Shown here in pieces: positions 3,809-62,033 of a DNA stretch of 64,000 bases. Under the pieces are notes generated by a model, which was given only the letters and a program-made list of their open reading frames with translations, had not been told where the DNA came from and made no database searches. Made by a program: the position numbers and the translations under genes. Every line of letters starts with the position of its first letter. The stretch's first letter is position 1. Origin of the DNA: Sphingopyxis sp. OAS728 (GTDB lineage: Bacteria; Pseudomonadota; Alphaproteobacteria; Sphingomonadales; Sphingomonadaceae); assembly GCF_014873485.1 (NCBI RefSeq), contig NZ_JADBDT010000001.1, positions 62,001-126,000 of the forward strand, given 5' to 3'.

Positions 3809-3861
3809 GCCGAAGGATTTCGGCTTGTTCCCGGGTCGCACCATATGGAGATTTCCATATG
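3809..3861 (-). promoter_or_regulatory. Two inverted repeats in the rpsD 5' leader
   Basis: Two perfect hairpins lie 24-76 bp upstream of the rpsD start: GCCGAA-GGAT-TTCGGC at 3809-3824 and CATATGGA-GATT-TCCATATG at 3842-3861. The first, close to the start codon, could be an RNA hairpin. The second could be a DNA operator or an RNA stem. S4 is a known translational autoregulator in other bacteria, which makes a leader role plausible, but I do not recognise this exact structure. Confidence 0.5.
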
Positions 3862-11518: not shown

Positions 11519-13237
11519 ATGAGCGATTCCGCCGACGACGAAACCCCGATGCTGGGAATGGACCTGCCCGAGACGACGCCACAGCCGTCGAGCGGTCCGT
11601 ACCGCGTCCTTGCCCGCAAATATCGCCCGCAAACCTTCGCCGAGCTGATCGGGCAGGATGCGATGGTGCGCACATTGGGCAACGCGATTGCGCGCGACCG
11701 GCTGGCGCATGCGTTTCTGATGACCGGGGTGCGCGGGGTCGGCAAGACCTCGACCGCGCGCCTGATCGCCAAGGCACTCAACTGCATCGGTCCCGACGGG
11801 CAGGGCGGGCCGACGATCGATCCGTGCGGTGTGTGCGAACCGTGCCGCGCGATCACCGAAGGGCGCCACATCGACGTCATCGAAATGGACGCCGCGTCGA
11901 ACACCGGCGTCGACGATGTGCGCGAGATTATCGAGGCGGTGCGCTATGCCGCCGTGTCGGCGCGCTACAAGATCTACATCATCGACGAAGTGCATATGTT
12001 GTCGCGTAACGCCTTCAACGCGCTCCTGAAAACGCTCGAAGAACCGCCGCCGCACGTCAAATTCCTGTTCGCGACGACCGAAGTGAACAAGGTGCCGGTG
12101 ACGGTGCTGTCGCGCTGCCAGCGCTTCGATCTTCGCCGCATCACCCCCGACATGCTGTTCGCGCATTTCAGCGCGATCTTGCAGAAGGAAGGCGTCGAGG
12201 CCGAGGCACCCGCGATCTGGCTGATCGCCAACGCCGCCGAAGGATCGGTGCGCGACGGCCTGTCGATCCTCGACCAGGCGATCGCGCATGCGGATCTCGA
12301 TGGCGGCGGGATGATCGGCGCGGCGCAGGTCCGCGTGATGCTCGGCCTCTCGGACCGCTCGTCGATCGCGCAGCTAATGGCGACGATCCTCGAAGGCGAT
12401 GCGGGCGGGGCCATCGATCTCGCGCGTGCGCAATATGCGCTGGGGATCGAACCCGTCGCGATGGTGCGCGGGCTGATGGACCTGACGCACGCCATCACGC
12501 TCGCTAAAGTGTCGCGCCACGATGACCCCGCGCTCGCCGAGGCGGACCGTGAACGCATCGGCGAATGGGCGCAAAAGCTGGGTTTCGCGCCGCTCAACCG
12601 GTTATGGCAATTGCTGCTGAAGGGGCATGACGAGGTGCTGCGCGCGAACAATCCGCTCGAGCATCTCGAAATGCTGCTGCTTCGCGTCATCTACGCCGCG
12701 TCGATGCCCGACCCCGGCGAGCTTGCGAAGCTGCTCGAAAAGGGGGGCGTGCCGACGATGCCGCTCGCTGCGCCGGCGGCACCTGCCGCACAGGAGAATA
12801 TGGCTGCCGAGCCCGTCGCGGCGGCGGAAGCGTCCGCGACGACAAGCCCGGAGGTGCCGGCATCCGCCCTCACTGTCGCCCAAATTCATCAGCTTCTCGA
12901 AACCACAGGAAATCATCGGCTTGCGGTCGATCTCTATGATCATCTGCGAATCATCGAACTCGAACCGGGCAGCATCGTTTTCGCGCCTGTCCCGGCGCTC
13001 GGCGGGGCGTTCGCCCGCGATCTCGGCGACGCGCTGCTCGCGCAGACCGGAAGCCGCTGGCACGTGCGGGAGGGCGAGGGTGAGGGGCGGCCGAGCCTTG
13101 GCGCGATCCGTGCTGCTAAGCTCGCCGATAATGACGCCCGAATCCGCGAATTGCCGGTCGTGAAGGCCGCTTTGGCCGCTTTTCCCGACGCGAGACTTGT
13201 CGAGGGCGACGACAATCGCCATAGGTCGAACCCATGA
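11519..13237 (+). CDS. dnaX: DNA polymerase III subunits gamma/tau
   Basis: 572-residue clamp-loader ATPase. Walker A GVRGVGKTS (70-78), zinc-binding cysteines C89, C103, C106, C109, and Walker B/DEVH at 156-159 are visible; LSRCQRFDLRRI is the SRC motif region. The C-terminal third (from about 415) is Ala/Pro-rich then forms the tau-like domain. A 28-residue N-terminal extension precedes the conserved YRVLARKYRPQTF. It overlaps ybaB by 4 bp. I saw no need for a gamma-producing frameshift. Confidence 0.97.
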   Translation: MSDSADDETPMLGMDLPETTPQPSSGPYRVLARKYRPQTFAELIGQDAMVRTLGNAIARDRLAHAFLMTGVRGVGKTSTARLIAKALNCIGPDGQGGPTIDPCGVCEPCRAITEGRHIDVIEMDAASNTGVDDVREIIEAVRYAAVSARYKIYIIDEVHMLSRNAFNALLKTLEEPPPHVKFLFATTEVNKVPVTVLSRCQRFDLRRITPDMLFAHFSAILQKEGVEAEAPAIWLIANAAEGSVRDGLSILDQAIAHADLDGGGMIGAAQVRVMLGLSDRSSIAQLMATILEGDAGGAIDLARAQYALGIEPVAMVRGLMDLTHAITLAKVSRHDDPALAEADRERIGEWAQKLGFAPLNRLWQLLLKGHDEVLRANNPLEHLEMLLLRVIYAASMPDPGELAKLLEKGGVPTMPLAAPAAPAAQENMAAEPVAAAEASATTSPEVPASALTVAQIHQLLETTGNHRLAVDLYDHLRIIELEPGSIVFAPVPALGGAFARDLGDALLAQTGSRWHVREGEGEGRPSLGAIRAAKLADNDARIRELPVVKAALAAFPDARLVEGDDNRHRSNP

Positions 13238-13569
13238 AATCGATCGAAGAAATGATGAAGGCGGCGCAAGAAGCCGCCGCCACCGTGCAGGCGCAGATGC
13301 AGGAGGCGCAGGCCAAGCTCGACAGTGTCGAGGTCGAGGGCGTGTCGGGCGGCGGTCTGGTCAAGATCACCGCGACCGCGAAGGGCCGGATCAAGGCGAT
13401 CCACATCGACGACAGCCTGATGGTTCCGTCGGACAAGCAGATGCTCGAAGACCTGCTCGCGGCCGCGTTCAACGACGCGCGCGAAAAGGCCGATACCGCG
13501 AGCAACGAAGAAATGGGCAAGATGACGAGCGGCCTGCCGCTCCCCCCGGGTTTCAAGCTGCCGTTCTGA
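13234..13569 (+). CDS. YbaB/EbfC family nucleoid-associated protein
   Basis: 111-residue DNA-binding protein. An N-terminal coiled-coil helix (MMKAAQEAAATVQAQMQEA) is followed by VEVEGVSGGGLVKITATAKG and a C-terminal helix region ending LPPGFKLPF. It is the partner commonly encoded after dnaX; the start overlaps dnaX by 4 bp. In many bacteria recR follows, but here lon follows instead. Confidence 0.93.
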   Translation: MKSIEEMMKAAQEAAATVQAQMQEAQAKLDSVEVEGVSGGGLVKITATAKGRIKAIHIDDSLMVPSDKQMLEDLLAAAFNDAREKADTASNEEMGKMTSGLPLPPGFKLPF

Positions 13570-13613
13570 GCCGGCCTCCAAATCCCTATGGGCCGCGCCG
13601 TTCAGCGCAGCGA

Positions 13614-13642
13614 CATTGAATGCGTGCGAAATTACGCCATAT
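13614..13642 (+). promoter_or_regulatory. Heat-shock (sigma-32 type) promoter of lon
   Basis: CATTGAA at 13614-13620, 14 bp, then CGCCATAT at 13635-13642. This closely follows the RpoH consensus (CTTGAA, N13-14, CCCCATnT), 63 bp upstream of the lon ATG. Lon is a classic sigma-32 target. Confidence 0.65.
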
Positions 13643-13705
13643 TAGCGAAGAACCACCTATAAGAAGGGCGGTGCGCCCGGTCGCGGGGCCCGTCCAGGAG
13701 CCGTA

Positions 13706-16102
13706 ATGACGCAATCTTATCCCCTTCTTCCGCTACGTGACATCGTCGTTTTCCCGCACATGATCGTGCCGCTGTTCGTCGGCCGCGACCGTTCGGTCGC
13801 CGCGCTCGAAACCGCGATGGAAAGCGACAAGGAAATCTTCCTCGTCGCGCAGCTCGATCCGGGCGAGGACGATCCGCAGCGCGACGATCTGTACGACGTC
13901 GGCGTGATCGCCACCGTTCTCCAGCTTTTGAAGCTGCCCGACGGCACGGTCCGCGTGCTTGTCGAGGGCAAGGAGCGCGCGAAGTTGCTCGGCCTGACCA
14001 CCGAAGACAAGGCCGTGATGGCGAGCGTGAAGCCCGTCGGCGACACCGTCGACGACAGCGTCGATACCGCCGCGCTGATGCGTTCGGTTGTCGACCAGTT
14101 CGAAAATTACGCCAAGCTCAACAAGAAAATGCCCGCCGAAACCGCGGTGCAGCTGTCGCAGATCGAGGACGCCTCGCGCCTCGCCGACTCGGTTGCGGGC
14201 AATCTCAACATCAAGGTGTCCGACAAGCAGGCATTGCTCGTCGAAGATGCGCCGTCGAAGCGGCTCGAAATGGTCTTCGCTTTCATGGAAGGCGAGCTCG
14301 GCGTGCTGCAGGTCGAAAAGAAGATCCGCGGCCGCGTGAAGCGCCAGATGGAAAAGAGCCAGCGCGAATATTATCTCAACGAACAGTTGAAGGCGATCCA
14401 GCGCGAGCTCGGCAACGACAATGGCGAGGGCGGCGACGACCTTGCCGAGCTGCAGCTCAAGATCGACGGCCTGAAAATGTCGAAGGAGGCCAAGGCCAAG
14501 GCGAACGCCGAGCTCAAGAAGCTCCGCGCGATGGCGCCGATGTCGGCCGAGGCCACCGTCGTTCGCAACTATCTCGACACGCTGATCGGCCTGCCGTGGG
14601 GCAAGAAGTCGAAGCTCAAGAAGGATATCGCCAAGGCGCAGGCCGTCCTCGACGACGACCATTATGCGCTCGAAAAGGTCAAGGACCGCATCGTCGAATA
14701 TCTCGCGGTGCAGGCGCGTACCAACAAGCTGAAGGGGCCGATCCTCTGCCTCGTCGGCCCTCCGGGCGTCGGCAAGACCTCGCTCGGCCGTTCGATCGCG
14801 AAAGCCACGGGCCGCGAATTCGTGCGTCAGTCGCTGGGCGGCGTGCGTGACGAGGCCGAAATCCGCGGCCATCGCCGCACCTACATCGGCTCGCTGCCGG
14901 GCAAGATCGTGACCAACCTCAAAAAGGCCGGCACGATGAACCCGCTGTTCCTGCTCGACGAGATCGACAAGCTCGGCCAGGATTTCCGCGGCGATCCGGC
15001 GTCGGCGCTGCTTGAGGTGCTCGACCCCGAACAGAATGGCAAGTTCCAGGACCATTATCTGGAGGTCGACGTCGACCTGTCGGACGTCATGTTCGTGACC
15101 ACCGCGAACTCGCTGAACCTGCCGCAGCCCTTGCTCGACCGCATGGAGATCATCCGGCTCGAGGGCTATACCGAGGACGAGAAGGTCGAGATCGCCAAGC
15201 TGCACCTGATCGCGAAGCAGGTCGAGGCGCATGGGCTGAAGGCCGGCGAATTCGAGCTGACCGAAGAGGGGCTGCGCGACCTCATCCGCTATTACACCCG
15301 CGAAGCCGGCGTTCGCACGCTTGAGCGCGAGATTGCGCGTCTTGCGCGCAAGGCGCTGCGCCGCATTCTTGAAGGGAAGGCCGAAACCGTCACCGTGACG
15401 CCCGATAATCTTTCGGAATTCGCGGGCGTGCGGAAATTCCGCCACGGCATGGGCGATCTGGAGGACCAGGTCGGTGCGGTCACCGGGCTTGCCTGGACCG
15501 AGGTTGGCGGCGAATTGCTGACGATCGAAGCCGTCACCGCGTCGGGCAAGGGGCAAGTGCGCACCACCGGCAAGCTTGGCGAAGTGATGACCGAATCGGT
15601 GCAGGCTGCGCTGTCCTTCGTGAAGGCGCGCGCGCCGGCTTACGGCATCAAGCCCAGCCTGTTCGCGCGCAAGGACATCCATATCCACTTGCCCGAAGGT
15701 GCGGTTCCGAAGGACGGCCCGTCGGCGGGTGTCGGCATGGTCACCGCGATGATTTCGACGCTGACCGGGATCGCGGTACGCCGCGATGTCGCGATGACGG
15801 GCGAAGTCACGCTGCGCGGCCGCGTGCTCGCGATCGGCGGCCTCAAGGAAAAGCTGCTTGCGGCGCTGCGCGGCGGCATCAAGACCGTGCTGATCCCGGA
15901 AGAAAACGAGAAAGACCTTGTTGAAATTCCGGCGAATATCACGAGCGGATTGAAGATCATTCCGGTCAGCCATGTCGATCAGGTGCTCGCCGAAGCGCTC
16001 GTATCGCCGGTGGTTCCGATCGAATGGACCGAGGCCGACGAGCTTGCCGCGTCGCCCCCGGTTCCGGCCGGAACCGACCCCGAAACGACGATTCGGCACT
16101 GA
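13706..16102 (+). CDS. lon: ATP-dependent protease Lon
   Basis: 798-residue cytosolic AAA+ protease that degrades misfolded and regulatory proteins. The N-terminal substrate-binding domain starts [20 protein letters not shown]. The ATPase has Walker [10 protein letters not shown] near residue 350 and Walker [10 protein letters not shown]. The C-terminal protease carries the Ser in [10 protein letters not shown] (about residue 673) and the Lys in [11 protein letters not shown] sigma-32 type promoter lies upstream, a strong terminator downstream, and HU (a known Lon substrate in other bacteria) is next. Confidence 0.98.
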
Positions 16103-45294: not shown

Positions 45295-45312
45295 GTGTCA
45301 TATAAGTGTCAC
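45295..45312 (+). promoter_or_regulatory. PhoB box, plus orientation, facing the retron
   Basis: Reads GTGTCATATAAGTGTCAC on the plus strand, another 7-4-7 Pho box. It lies 3 bp from the minus box and 61 bp before the retron RNA. About 12 bp downstream is GGCTATC (45325-45331), a possible -10. It could serve the retron, or add a PhoB site to the pstS promoter. Confidence 0.65.
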
Positions 45313-45372
45313 GGGATGGGTGGCGGCTATCAAGAGCTTGACAAACAAGATCAGATTGTCACGAAGGAGAAA

Positions 45373-45520
45373 GGGCCTGTGAGCAGAACCTTCTGCTGAA
45401 GTTTCGCGGCAGTTGAATAGTATGCGAGGATTTCTTGCTACTGGATAAATCGACAATGATGATCCGAATAGGACAATTAATGCGGATTCACCGGAATCGC
45501 ATGAGAGTGCTCACAGGCCC
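45373..45520 (+). ncRNA. Retron msr-msd RNA
   Basis: The ends form a perfect 13-bp inverted repeat, GGGCCTGTGAGCA (45373-45385, a1) and TGCTCACAGGCCC (45508-45520, a2), the defining retron arrangement. Between them: a hairpin 45387-45404 (AACCTTC-TGCT-GAAGTTT, one mismatch), a hairpin 45419-45442 (AGTA..GCGAG-GATTT-CTTGC-TACT), and a 9-bp hairpin with one bulged G at 45480-45502 (ATGCGGATTC-ACCG-GAATCGCAT), the likely msd stem. The priming guanosine is probably in GAGC at the 3' end of a1. The a2 repeat touches the reverse transcriptase ATG at 45521. The msr/msd boundary is not certain. Confidence 0.82.
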
Positions 45521-46855
45521 ATGCTAATCGATCTAAAGGCTTGCAAGGATAAGCGTGACCTCGCTCATCTCTTAGGATTTCAGCTCAAAACGATAACTTA
45601 CCAGATTAACATCGCTCCCGACGCTGAAAAATATAAAAAAATATGCATAAGTAAAAAGAATGGTAATTCAAGAACGGTTTTTTCACCAAATCCTATTCTA
45701 AAATCTATACAAAATAGCCTTCTTGAGATCATAACTTCTTGTTATGATCAAATTCATGGTGGAATGAATTATCCGGTAAGCTTCGGTTTTATTCCTAATC
45801 TAAACATTTATGACAATGCGAAGCGCCATATAGGAAAACGCTGGGTATTCAATGTCGATATAAAAGACTATTTTGACTCAATAAATTATGGTCGCGTTTG
45901 GAGGTATCTGCAAAAGAACAAGAATTTTCTTTTGAATGCTGAAATCGCAACAATGATTTCGCAGATTGTTTGCTTTGACGGTCGCCTTCCACAGGGCGCT
46001 CCTACTTCTCCGATGATGGCAAATTTAGTGTCAGGGTCATTGGATTACCGATTGCGATCATTGGCCTCTGAGCACAAGTGCACCTATTCTCGATACGCTG
46101 ATGATATCACGTTTTCGACAAATTTGCGGGATTTTCCTGAGGAGGTGGCTCGATATGATGAACCTTCCGGGAGTTGGCTGCCGGGTAAGGGTCTCTTGTC
46201 CTGCGTAAGTAGAGCTTGGTTTTCACTAAATGATGGTAAGACAAGGATGTCCTATCGTCGCAGTAAGCAAGTGGTGACCGGGCTAATTGTAAATAAAAAG
46301 GTGAATGTCGATAGGGAGTATTTCAAACTTGTCCGCGCCAATATACATCATCTCTTAACAGGTCGCCCGGTCATTCTGCAGGAGTTCTGCGATCCGTATG
46401 GTGAAAATTGCGATGGCAAGGAAGTCAAGAATAAAAATGGAATGAGTCTTATTGAAGGAAGGATAAATTTTTGCTTTGAGATAAATGATCAAGGCGATGA
46501 AAGAACGGATAATGCAAAATTTTTCAAGCCAAGCTCAGTTAGAAAAACGTACAGGGATTTTTTGATTTATAAATATTTTATACACGGAGATAGGCCGATA
46601 CTAATCACTGAAGGTGAAAGTGATATTGTATATATGGCTGCCTATCTGAAAGCGAGATCTTTGCCATTGGCTAATTTAGTAGATGTATCTCCGCCGGATA
46701 ATCGCAAAATTTTGATCGATTTCTATCAGTTTCCTAAGAGACCCTCGAAAATTATCGGCATGACAGGCGGTACTTCTGGCGTGGCATTCGCGCTTAAATG
46801 GGTTGGGGAGATTTTACCGCGCTTGGGCAAAAATGTTTCACGCCGCAAATTCTAA
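45521..46855 (+). CDS. Retron reverse transcriptase fused to N-terminal half of a TOPRIM domain
   Basis: 444 codons to a TAA. Reverse transcriptase features: retron-specific NAKRH (NAxxH, residues 99-103), DIKDYFDSI (113-121), LPQGAPTSP (156-164), catalytic YADD (192-195) and the retron VTG (252-254). After the RT, RPILITEGESDIVYM supplies the TOPRIM glutamate (E364). The DxD half of TOPRIM follows in another frame (next entry). RT-TOPRIM fusion is the Ec67 (Eco2) plan, an anti-phage retron class. AT-rich codon use against a GC-rich background marks transfer. The start codon directly follows a2; there is no clear Shine-Dalgarno. Confidence 0.92.
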   Translation: MLIDLKACKDKRDLAHLLGFQLKTITYQINIAPDAEKYKKICISKKNGNSRTVFSPNPILKSIQNSLLEIITSCYDQIHGGMNYPVSFGFIPNLNIYDNAKRHIGKRWVFNVDIKDYFDSINYGRVWRYLQKNKNFLLNAEIATMISQIVCFDGRLPQGAPTSPMMANLVSGSLDYRLRSLASEHKCTYSRYADDITFSTNLRDFPEEVARYDEPSGSWLPGKGLLSCVSRAWFSLNDGKTRMSYRRSKQVVTGLIVNKKVNVDREYFKLVRANIHHLLTGRPVILQEFCDPYGENCDGKEVKNKNGMSLIEGRINFCFEINDQGDERTDNAKFFKPSSVRKTYRDFLIYKYFIHGDRPILITEGESDIVYMAAYLKARSLPLANLVDVSPPDNRKILIDFYQFPKRPSKIIGMTGGTSGVAFALKWVGEILPRLGKNVSRRKF

Positions 46856-47211
46856 TTCTCTTGGATAACGATGAAGGCCTGAAGCCCGTAACAGAAATGT
46901 GCAAAACGGTCTTCTCCAAAGAGTTGTCATTAGACAACAACGCGGACTACGTGGAAATCGATAAGTTCATTAAAATTGTAAAAACTCCTCATATCGGAGG
47001 GAAGAAGAAAACTTGCATAGAAGATTTTCTCCCTGATGCGCCTAAGAAGGATTCTGTAAGCGGAAAAACGTATAGTTCTAAGCCGGATTTCGACGCTACA
47101 AAGCACTTTGGTAAGATTGTCCTTTCACACCGGATCTATGACCAAAGAGATTCATTGGACTTTTCTAAATTTGACAAAGTGGCAGACAGAATGTCGAAAG
47201 CTCTAAGCTAG
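46798..47211 (+). pseudogene. C-terminal half of the TOPRIM domain, shifted to the -1 frame
   Basis: This frame continues the upstream protein: PQILILLDNDEGLKPVTEMC carries the TOPRIM DxD (DND), then a helical tail and ends DKVADRMSKALS. It overlaps the RT frame by 58 bp. One extra base in the A5 run at 46829-46833 would fuse both into a single protein of about 563 residues, near the size of Ec67 RT. An ATG at 46798 has no ribosome-binding site. So this is either a frameshifted (inactive) effector, a recoded one, or a sequencing error. Confidence 0.75.
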
Positions 47212-47239
47212 AGGCAAATTTGCTTTGCGTGGAAATGTC

Positions 47240-47548
47240 ATGATCCTCATCACCGGCCACGTCATCCTCACCCCCGAGCATCGCGAGCGCATGATCGCGC
47301 TCGGTGCCGAGCATAGCGCGCGGTCGCGGTCCGAGCCGGGGTGTCTGGCGCATAATTGCCATATCGATGTCGAAAACCCCGACCGGCTGATGTTCGTCGA
47401 GGAGTGGGAGAGCGTCGACGCGGTCCGTGCCCATTTCGCGCTGCCCGCCTCGCGCGCCTTCGTCGCCGACATGCGCGCGCGCTCGCCCGAGCCGCCCGCG
47501 ATCCGGATTTATGCCGCCGAGGATATCACCGCGACGCTGATGGGCTGA
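47240..47548 (+). CDS. Antibiotic biosynthesis monooxygenase (ABM/YgiN-like) protein
   Basis: 102 residues from MILITGHVILTPEHRERM. A dimeric ferredoxin-like ABM fold is indicated by ARSRSEPGCLAHNCHIDVEN, LMFVEEWESVDAVRAHF and SRAFVADMRA. Family members act as quinol monooxygenases or oxygenases without cofactor, or bind heme; the function here is unknown. It starts 28 bp after the retron remnant and returns to GC-rich composition. Confidence 0.85.
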   Translation: MILITGHVILTPEHRERMIALGAEHSARSRSEPGCLAHNCHIDVENPDRLMFVEEWESVDAVRAHFALPASRAFVADMRARSPEPPAIRIYAAEDITATLMG

Positions 47549-61790: not shown

Positions 61791-62033
61791 TGGTCAATTT
61801 GGCCATGACCGTTCTTCCGATGCAAGCCTCGCGTCATGATCTTGTCCGCCGGTTGGCCATTCGTCGACGGATCGACGCCCTTCGTCTGTCAATCGAGCGG
61901 CTCTCCGCCCCGATCGATCCAAAGGCGATTCTGATGACGTCCAGAGGGTATCACCAACTTGCGGGATATCGGAAGACGGTCTCCCCGGTCCGCCAGCCGG
62001 TATCCCGCATCCTTTTGAAGAGAGGACTCCCCC

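Follow-up and report, generated by a model that had tools for sequence, protein, structure and literature searches.

A type I-C retron between pstS and an ABM-domain gene in Sphingopyxis sp. OAS728, with a TOPRIM domain probably broken by a recent frameshift

The window analysed here, which is the whole 64,000-nucleotide stretch from positions 62,001 to 126,000 of Sphingopyxis sp. OAS728 contig NZ_JADBDT010000001.1, carries a short AT-rich module composed of a retron RNA, a reverse transcriptase (RT), and a TOPRIM domain that is divided between two reading frames. On one flank, genes on the - strand encode PBP_like_2, DUF3708, BPD_transp_1, ABC_tran and PhoU domains, and the gene on the other flank encodes an ABM domain. 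We infer the name pst from this set of phosphate-transporter and PhoU domains together with a preliminary description of the locus, whose placement of the retron beside a pst operon agrees with the genes that adjoin it. The features of the module are as follows.

45315 to 47235, no strand assigned: inserted module, GC 0.413; similarity to same-genus relatives ends near 45311-45315 and returns near 47225-47240.
45373 to 45385, + strand: a1 repeat, 13 nt, perfect complement of a2, in a stem that 15 other loci preserve through compensatory changes.
45373 to 45520, + strand: retron ncRNA (msr-msd), 148 nt, matched over 45374-45519 by covariance model R1 (62.7 bits, E 2e-13).
45386, + strand: predicted branching G for 2'-5' priming, directly after a1 in an invariant AGA, by analogy to rG15 of Eco2 msDNA (PMC12405507).
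45393 to 45412, + strand: msr stem-loop CTGCTG...CGGCAG, predicted in the window fold; the consensus structure has a stem there.
45425 to 45506, - strand: approximate predicted msDNA template, first templated base A45506, placed from the GAGT before a2 and from Eco2 anatomy; 45425 is a guess.
45508 to 45520, + strand: a2 repeat, perfect complement of a1; the RT start codon adjoins at 45521.
45521 to 46855, + strand: RT and first TOPRIM part, 444 aa, with a premature TAA; recognised by PADLOC RT-Toprim_I-C (450.6 bits), NF038237 (444.1) and Ec67 structures.
46607 to 46624, + strand: TEGESD, in frame with the RT, is the first TOPRIM motif (ExxxD); it aligns with TEGKTD of Eco2 and is read as E374/D378 of PMC12405507.
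46844 to 46861, + strand: estimated stretch of frame loss, through which the intact relatives P0002 and P0003 read; the two frames are open together only over 46798-46852.
46849 to 47211, + strand: remaining TOPRIM (LDND, IEDF, KHFGK) in another frame; RT-Toprim_I-C 71.3 bits over profile positions 431-548, with 79.5% identity to each of P0002 and P0003.

The RNA is bounded at 45373-45385 by the a1 repeat GGGCCTGTGAGCA and at 45508-45520 by the complementary a2, a perfect 13-bp pairing that spans 148 nt from end to end, as had been described, with arms extendable to 18 nt at 89%. These are the only two sites in the window that match the 13-mer at up to one mismatch, with 0.03 matches expected. 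The ncRNA strand has a predicted folding energy of -59.7 kcal/mol, which beats 200 of 200 shuffles (z -4.53) and bears out the description of a structured RNA, and the predicted msd region as DNA gave no unusually stable fold (z -0.77). The a2 repeat runs into the RT start codon ATG at 45521 with no gap, and by eye no clear Shine-Dalgarno sequence is found over 45508-45523. Given this arrangement, pairing of a1 with a2 could mask the ribosome-binding region.

Comparison with other loci places this RNA in a known family. In an 11-row alignment of the window and ten RT-Toprim loci, the AGA after a1 and the GAGT before a2 are invariant, and both motifs are again invariant in a 15-row alignment that leaves out the window. 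In the same 15 loci, 17 of the 21 predicted pairs show at least one sequence in which both sides have changed with pairing kept; the a1/a2 repeat is thus retained in homologous loci with compensatory changes. Covariance model R1 was built from the upstream regions of these 15 other RT-Toprim loci, including the Ec67-family Escherichia coli plasmid locus L076 and excluding the window, and it found the window RNA over all 138 model positions (62.7 bits, E 2e-13). Across the 4.92-Mb genome, the window RNA was the sole match at E <= 0.001 among the 150 of 459 first-look candidates that were scored. Such a covariance search had been proposed in the preliminary description, which also raised the possibility of a new ncRNA variant. 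That suggestion falls, since a model made from other type I-C RNAs matches the window RNA; the ncRNA and its family are thereby demonstrated, and the RNA is a standard type I-C (Ec67/Eco2) RNA.

The reach of R1 was also assessed on 80 further loci, hand-picked as RT-Toprim (30 and 45 from two lists of 80, plus five others), one of which, L131, duplicates the model member L049. The model found 77 of the 80 at E up to 0.1, with scores from 24.6 to 95.2 bits, and 54 of the 77 outscore the window RNA. Of the three misses, L231 and L245 are explained by a lack of upstream DNA, their matches starting at base 22 and base 10, respectively; the third is L126. A new ncRNA class can therefore be set aside, both from the match in the window and from the recovery of these other type I-C loci. 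An ncRNA search of 27 other sources matched three, L052, L051 and L008, the last being the window itself, and a DNA search of plasmids with the window ncRNA gave no match. Rfam 15, whether searched at the gathering threshold or with E relaxed to 10, reported no retron family here, which reflects a limit of the library and is uninformative on the RNA.

The RT carries the motifs attributed to it in the preliminary description, with NAKRH at 45815-45829, YADD within RYADD at 46091-46105, and VTGL at 46274-46285. PADLOC, from which the subtype label I-C is taken, scored the 444-aa ORF at 450.6 bits for RT-Toprim_I-C, the next kind being RT-TIR_XII at 318 bits. The best solved relatives of the RT are structures of the Retron Ec67 protein, PDB 9lm3 and 9i2f. 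By profile score, the nearest family is neither group II intron nor DRT/Abi: TIGR04416 gave 59.5 bits where 300 are needed, Drt2 31.3 (390), and Drt3a 30.3 (200), so that a group II intron or DRT identity was rejected. The ORF scores 444.1 bits with NF038237 and so stops short of the cut-off of 450 bits, which is exceeded by P0002 (530.9), P0003 (539.6), and even the short protein P0017 (477.2).

An RT phylogeny, also suggested earlier, leads to the same family. The tree was built with FastTree from 86 retron-like RT domains and rooted on one DRT8 protein, no group II RT being recognised in the set. The window RT pairs with P0002 (support 0.948), then with P0003 (1.0), and lies inside a clade of 28 tips (support 0.993) that holds all 27 sequences entered as RT-Toprim, the window included, together with L172, which ends at a contig edge with its effector beyond the sequence seen. 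Two proteins whose matches reach into the TOPRIM part, L155 and L168, fall outside this clade. The RT and its family are thus demonstrated by profile and tree. With an RT of the RT-Toprim_I-C family and the family ncRNA, with paired a1 and a2, directly upstream, the locus is by these two components a type I-C retron of the Ec67/Eco2 family, and the earlier assignment to RT-TOPRIM retrons of the Ec67/Eco2 kind is upheld by profile scores, solved-structure matches and tree.

The TOPRIM part departs from this pattern. The preliminary description gave an RT with a C-terminal TOPRIM running to 47211; the RT and the ExxxD part are indeed in one frame, and the single gene ending at 47211 is not there, owing to a frameshift near 46850. 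The first ORF ends in LGKNVSRRKF at the stop codon 46853-46855, and the TOPRIM continuation, ILILLDNDEGLKP..., lies in another frame that is open over 46798-47211, with LDND at 46861-46872 outside the RT frame. Profile positions 4-409 are covered by the first ORF and positions 431-548 by the other frame, on two models of one family. Because the RT frame stops at 46853-46855 with the rest in another frame, 45521-47211 represents two frames and not one gene, and this break is demonstrated in the present sequence. Both P0002 and P0003 cross the break point in one frame.

The consequences of the break can be gauged from Eco2. According to PMC12405507, alanine changes at E374, D378, D460, D462, S513, E515 and K562 of Eco2 abolished defence, the Toprim domain acts as a toxic RNase when free, and the phage protein DenB is proposed as the trigger. 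When the window was mapped onto the Eco2 chain using the residues named there, a mapping that covers E374, D378, D460, D462, S513 and E515, the counterparts of E374 and D378 fell in the RT frame and those of D460, D462 and E515 fell out of it. The residue that corresponds to S513 is a cysteine both in the window and in P0003. The product encoded in the RT frame thus holds ExxxD without DxD and the later motifs, and since the counterparts of DxD and E515 that are needed in Eco2 are out of frame, it should be inactive as an effector. The claim of a complete retron locus does not hold for this reason. As TOPRIM and RT are not joined in a single frame as sequenced, the locus is filed as a disarmed copy, probably an ordinary member of a known anti-phage family that is not to be counted as a working system.

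The sequence on either side of the break is well conserved. Compared with P0002, the RT is 78.2% identical, the initial portion of the TOPRIM 74.3%, and the sequence past the break 79.5%; the corresponding values for P0003 are 74.2%, 74.3% and 79.5%. This absence of decay after the break implies that the lesion is either recent or not real, that is, a sequencing error; the undecayed stretch also fits a frame that is still in use. The reading that we consider probable is that a type I-C retron entered the site between pstS and the ABM gene as one module, and that its toxin domain has lately been broken by a frameshift.

The principal alternative is that the frameshift is an error of sequencing or assembly, and that the organism has an ordinary intact type I-C retron. 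The lesion is single, it lies within an AT-rich insert of a GC-rich region, and the pieces share 74-80% identity with two intact relatives and contain no additional stop, all of which speak for an error. Against this, the genome is one contig with completeness 100 and contamination 0.21, and we regard an error as possible though unlikely. Comparison of the window with three syntenic relatives raised 15 frameshift-like flags among the 268 ORFs that could be matched (5 of 81, 8 of 107 and 2 of 80), which by eye are mostly antisense or end-of-ORF noise. Near position 3848, the frame of the window differs from that of the relatives G451 and G406, by a frameshift or an alignment effect.

The frequency of such breaks was surveyed in 95 RT-Toprim loci, with starts unchecked and L102 left out. 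Two of the loci lie at contig edges, and 83 of the 93 that are assessable are intact in one frame (8 of the 83 being near-duplicates). A stop or frame change is present in seven of the 93, namely the window, L050, L052, L079, L214, L151 and L161, and three streptococcal loci (L160, L152 and L195) are in one frame with no stop but give split or short alignments. Since the loci were picked as good matches, broken copies are under-counted.

For two of the relatives, the position of the break recalls that of the window. The protein P0017 (461 aa; five sequences, two contigs), which is 45-46% identical to the window, ends at a near-identical alignment column, and L050 loses its frame in the same TOPRIM part; a further stop inside the RT part of L050 indicates a decayed gene. 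These near-coincidences are suggestive only. It is very unlikely, in our estimation, that the type I-C TOPRIM has a favoured break point just before the DxD strand at which frameshifts, by mutation or recoding, would switch the toxin off and leave the RT and msDNA on, with the window, P0017 and L050 as three independent cases. Clustering of break points was not demonstrated in the RT-Toprim set because the protein matches were ranked by score, P0017 was seen as a protein alone, and P0034, P0035, P0038, P0064 and P0116 are short for unsettled reasons. No report of a retron frameshift or pseudogene was found in the literature search, judged by its listings.

The same observations touch on the idea of recoding or switching at the break, where an occasional ribosomal shift or back-and-forth mutation would keep the output of TOPRIM toxin low. 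The second frame is open and conserved, and the end of P0017 and the frame loss in L050 would suit such a site; yet by eye there is no classical slippery heptamer at the break, the nearest relatives have the fusion in a single frame, and L050 is a decayed gene with its extra stop in the RT part, leaving recoding highly improbable. It is scarcely credible that a functional TOPRIM is reassembled from two pieces translated apart: an ATG does open the second frame at 46798, but by eye no ribosome-binding site precedes it, ExxxD and DxD would be on different pieces, and among the 93 loci just L050, itself decayed, is split in the same part.

The module's GC content of 0.413 against 0.639 for the whole window agrees with the AT-rich insert described earlier, and the view of an acquired element is sustained by the corresponding site, where no such retron was found in any of the 27 same-genus genomes examined. 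These 27 (20 plus 7 more) were hand-picked from matches to the ABM gene and are not a random sample; 70 of 80 genomes gave a match to that gene, the source of the window being one of the 70. The slot between the two flanking genes is shorter than 100 nt in three of the 27 (80 nt in L302, 57 in L303, and 66 in L047). In the other 24 it measures 290 to 3147 nt and holds varied genes, with a GC content of 0.42 to 0.60 against 0.64 for the window. Some slot genes recur by eye, in L294 and L042 and in L305 and G406. Transposase-like ORFs were seen by eye in the inserts of L294 and L305. Given varied inserts in 24 of 27 genomes, the retron is one of many modules at the pstS-ABM site, as counted from this site alone.

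Twenty of the 24 inserts were scanned with PADLOC on at least one ORF, leaving out L036, L038, L042 and L046; L043 and L044 are the same genomes as L289 and L290. Strong matches (E below 1e-20) to established or candidate defence families were obtained for five of the 20: AbiLi in L289, PDC-M29A in L290, NsnB in L296, Drt8 in L300, and AbiLi with AbiLii in L308, whose insert also has an RloB-domain partner. The exact names are uncertain for L289, L290, L296 and one of the two in L308, as these are ATPases that match many families at once. The assignment is clear for L300, where positions 12522-14102 encode a Drt8 RT (420.4 bits). Drt8 in L300 and the retron of the window are two different kinds of RT defence at one site. 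Weak matches alone were found in four of the 20 (L291, L295, L301 and L306), and the scanned ORFs of eleven gave no PADLOC match (L292, L293, L294, L297, L298, L299, L304, L305, L307, G406 and G450). Among these eleven are large single ORFs, one of 642 aa in L298 and, in L299, one of 663 aa that has a HATPase match below the cut-off. All eleven may hold defence genes yet to be described. In other bacteria and in phages, defence hotspots are already known (PMC10250203, PMC9122126); the literature searched on retrons and defence hotspots in Sphingomonadales, partly by listings, gave no report of this retron locus or of the pstS-ABM slot.

By analogy to Eco2, the ncRNA would fold through a1 and a2, and the RT would prime from the G after a1 (45386) and copy the msd into msDNA. 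In an intact relative, a complex of RT-TOPRIM and msDNA would keep the TOPRIM nuclease inactive, and phage damage to the msDNA would free the TOPRIM, with RNA then degraded. For the window copy, the main product would end before DxD, and for that reason msDNA should remain possible and killing or defence should not.

What had been claimed as a complete defence retron with a new RNA is thus better viewed as a type I-C retron of the standard kind, probably disarmed. A covariance alignment of the I-C RNA is now available for use, and a toxin-less retron that keeps its RT and ncRNA may serve as a natural test of the use of msDNA in its own right. The pstS-ABM slot, with 11 of 20 scanned inserts lacking a PADLOC match, would offer a compact place in which to find new defence genes in the genus.

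Of 397 genomes drawn from the bacterial family, with an unspecified share in the genus, six matched at E up to 1e-40, the window's own being the sole one of the six in the genus. A contig search with the single window protein found no relative, and an alignment query was used afterwards. Among named systems, Retron Ec67/Eco2 (type I-C; PDB 9lm3, 9i2f) is the best solved-structure match and shares the RT profile family, and differs in that the TOPRIM of the window copy is split by a frameshift. The ncRNA of L076, a locus on an E. coli plasmid annotated as Ec67 family, can be aligned on the family motifs; the L076 protein shows 37.2% identity to the window ORF over 94% of its length. The closest proteins, P0002 and P0003, are RT-TOPRIM proteins of 563 aa that match the window ORF along its full length at 77% and 74% identity; in contrast to the window copy, they have one intact frame and exceed the NF038237 cut-off. 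The plasmid retron of Sphingomonas sp. AP4-R1 (NZ_CP053347.1) has a similar ncRNA core and an RT-TOPRIM 38.4% identical over 95%, but its gene is intact, at 571 aa, and is carried on a 22-kb plasmid. Finally, the Drt8 gene of L300 is like the retron in being an RT defence gene between the same two flanking genes, and unlike it in belonging to the Drt8 family (420.4 bits) and not to the retrons.
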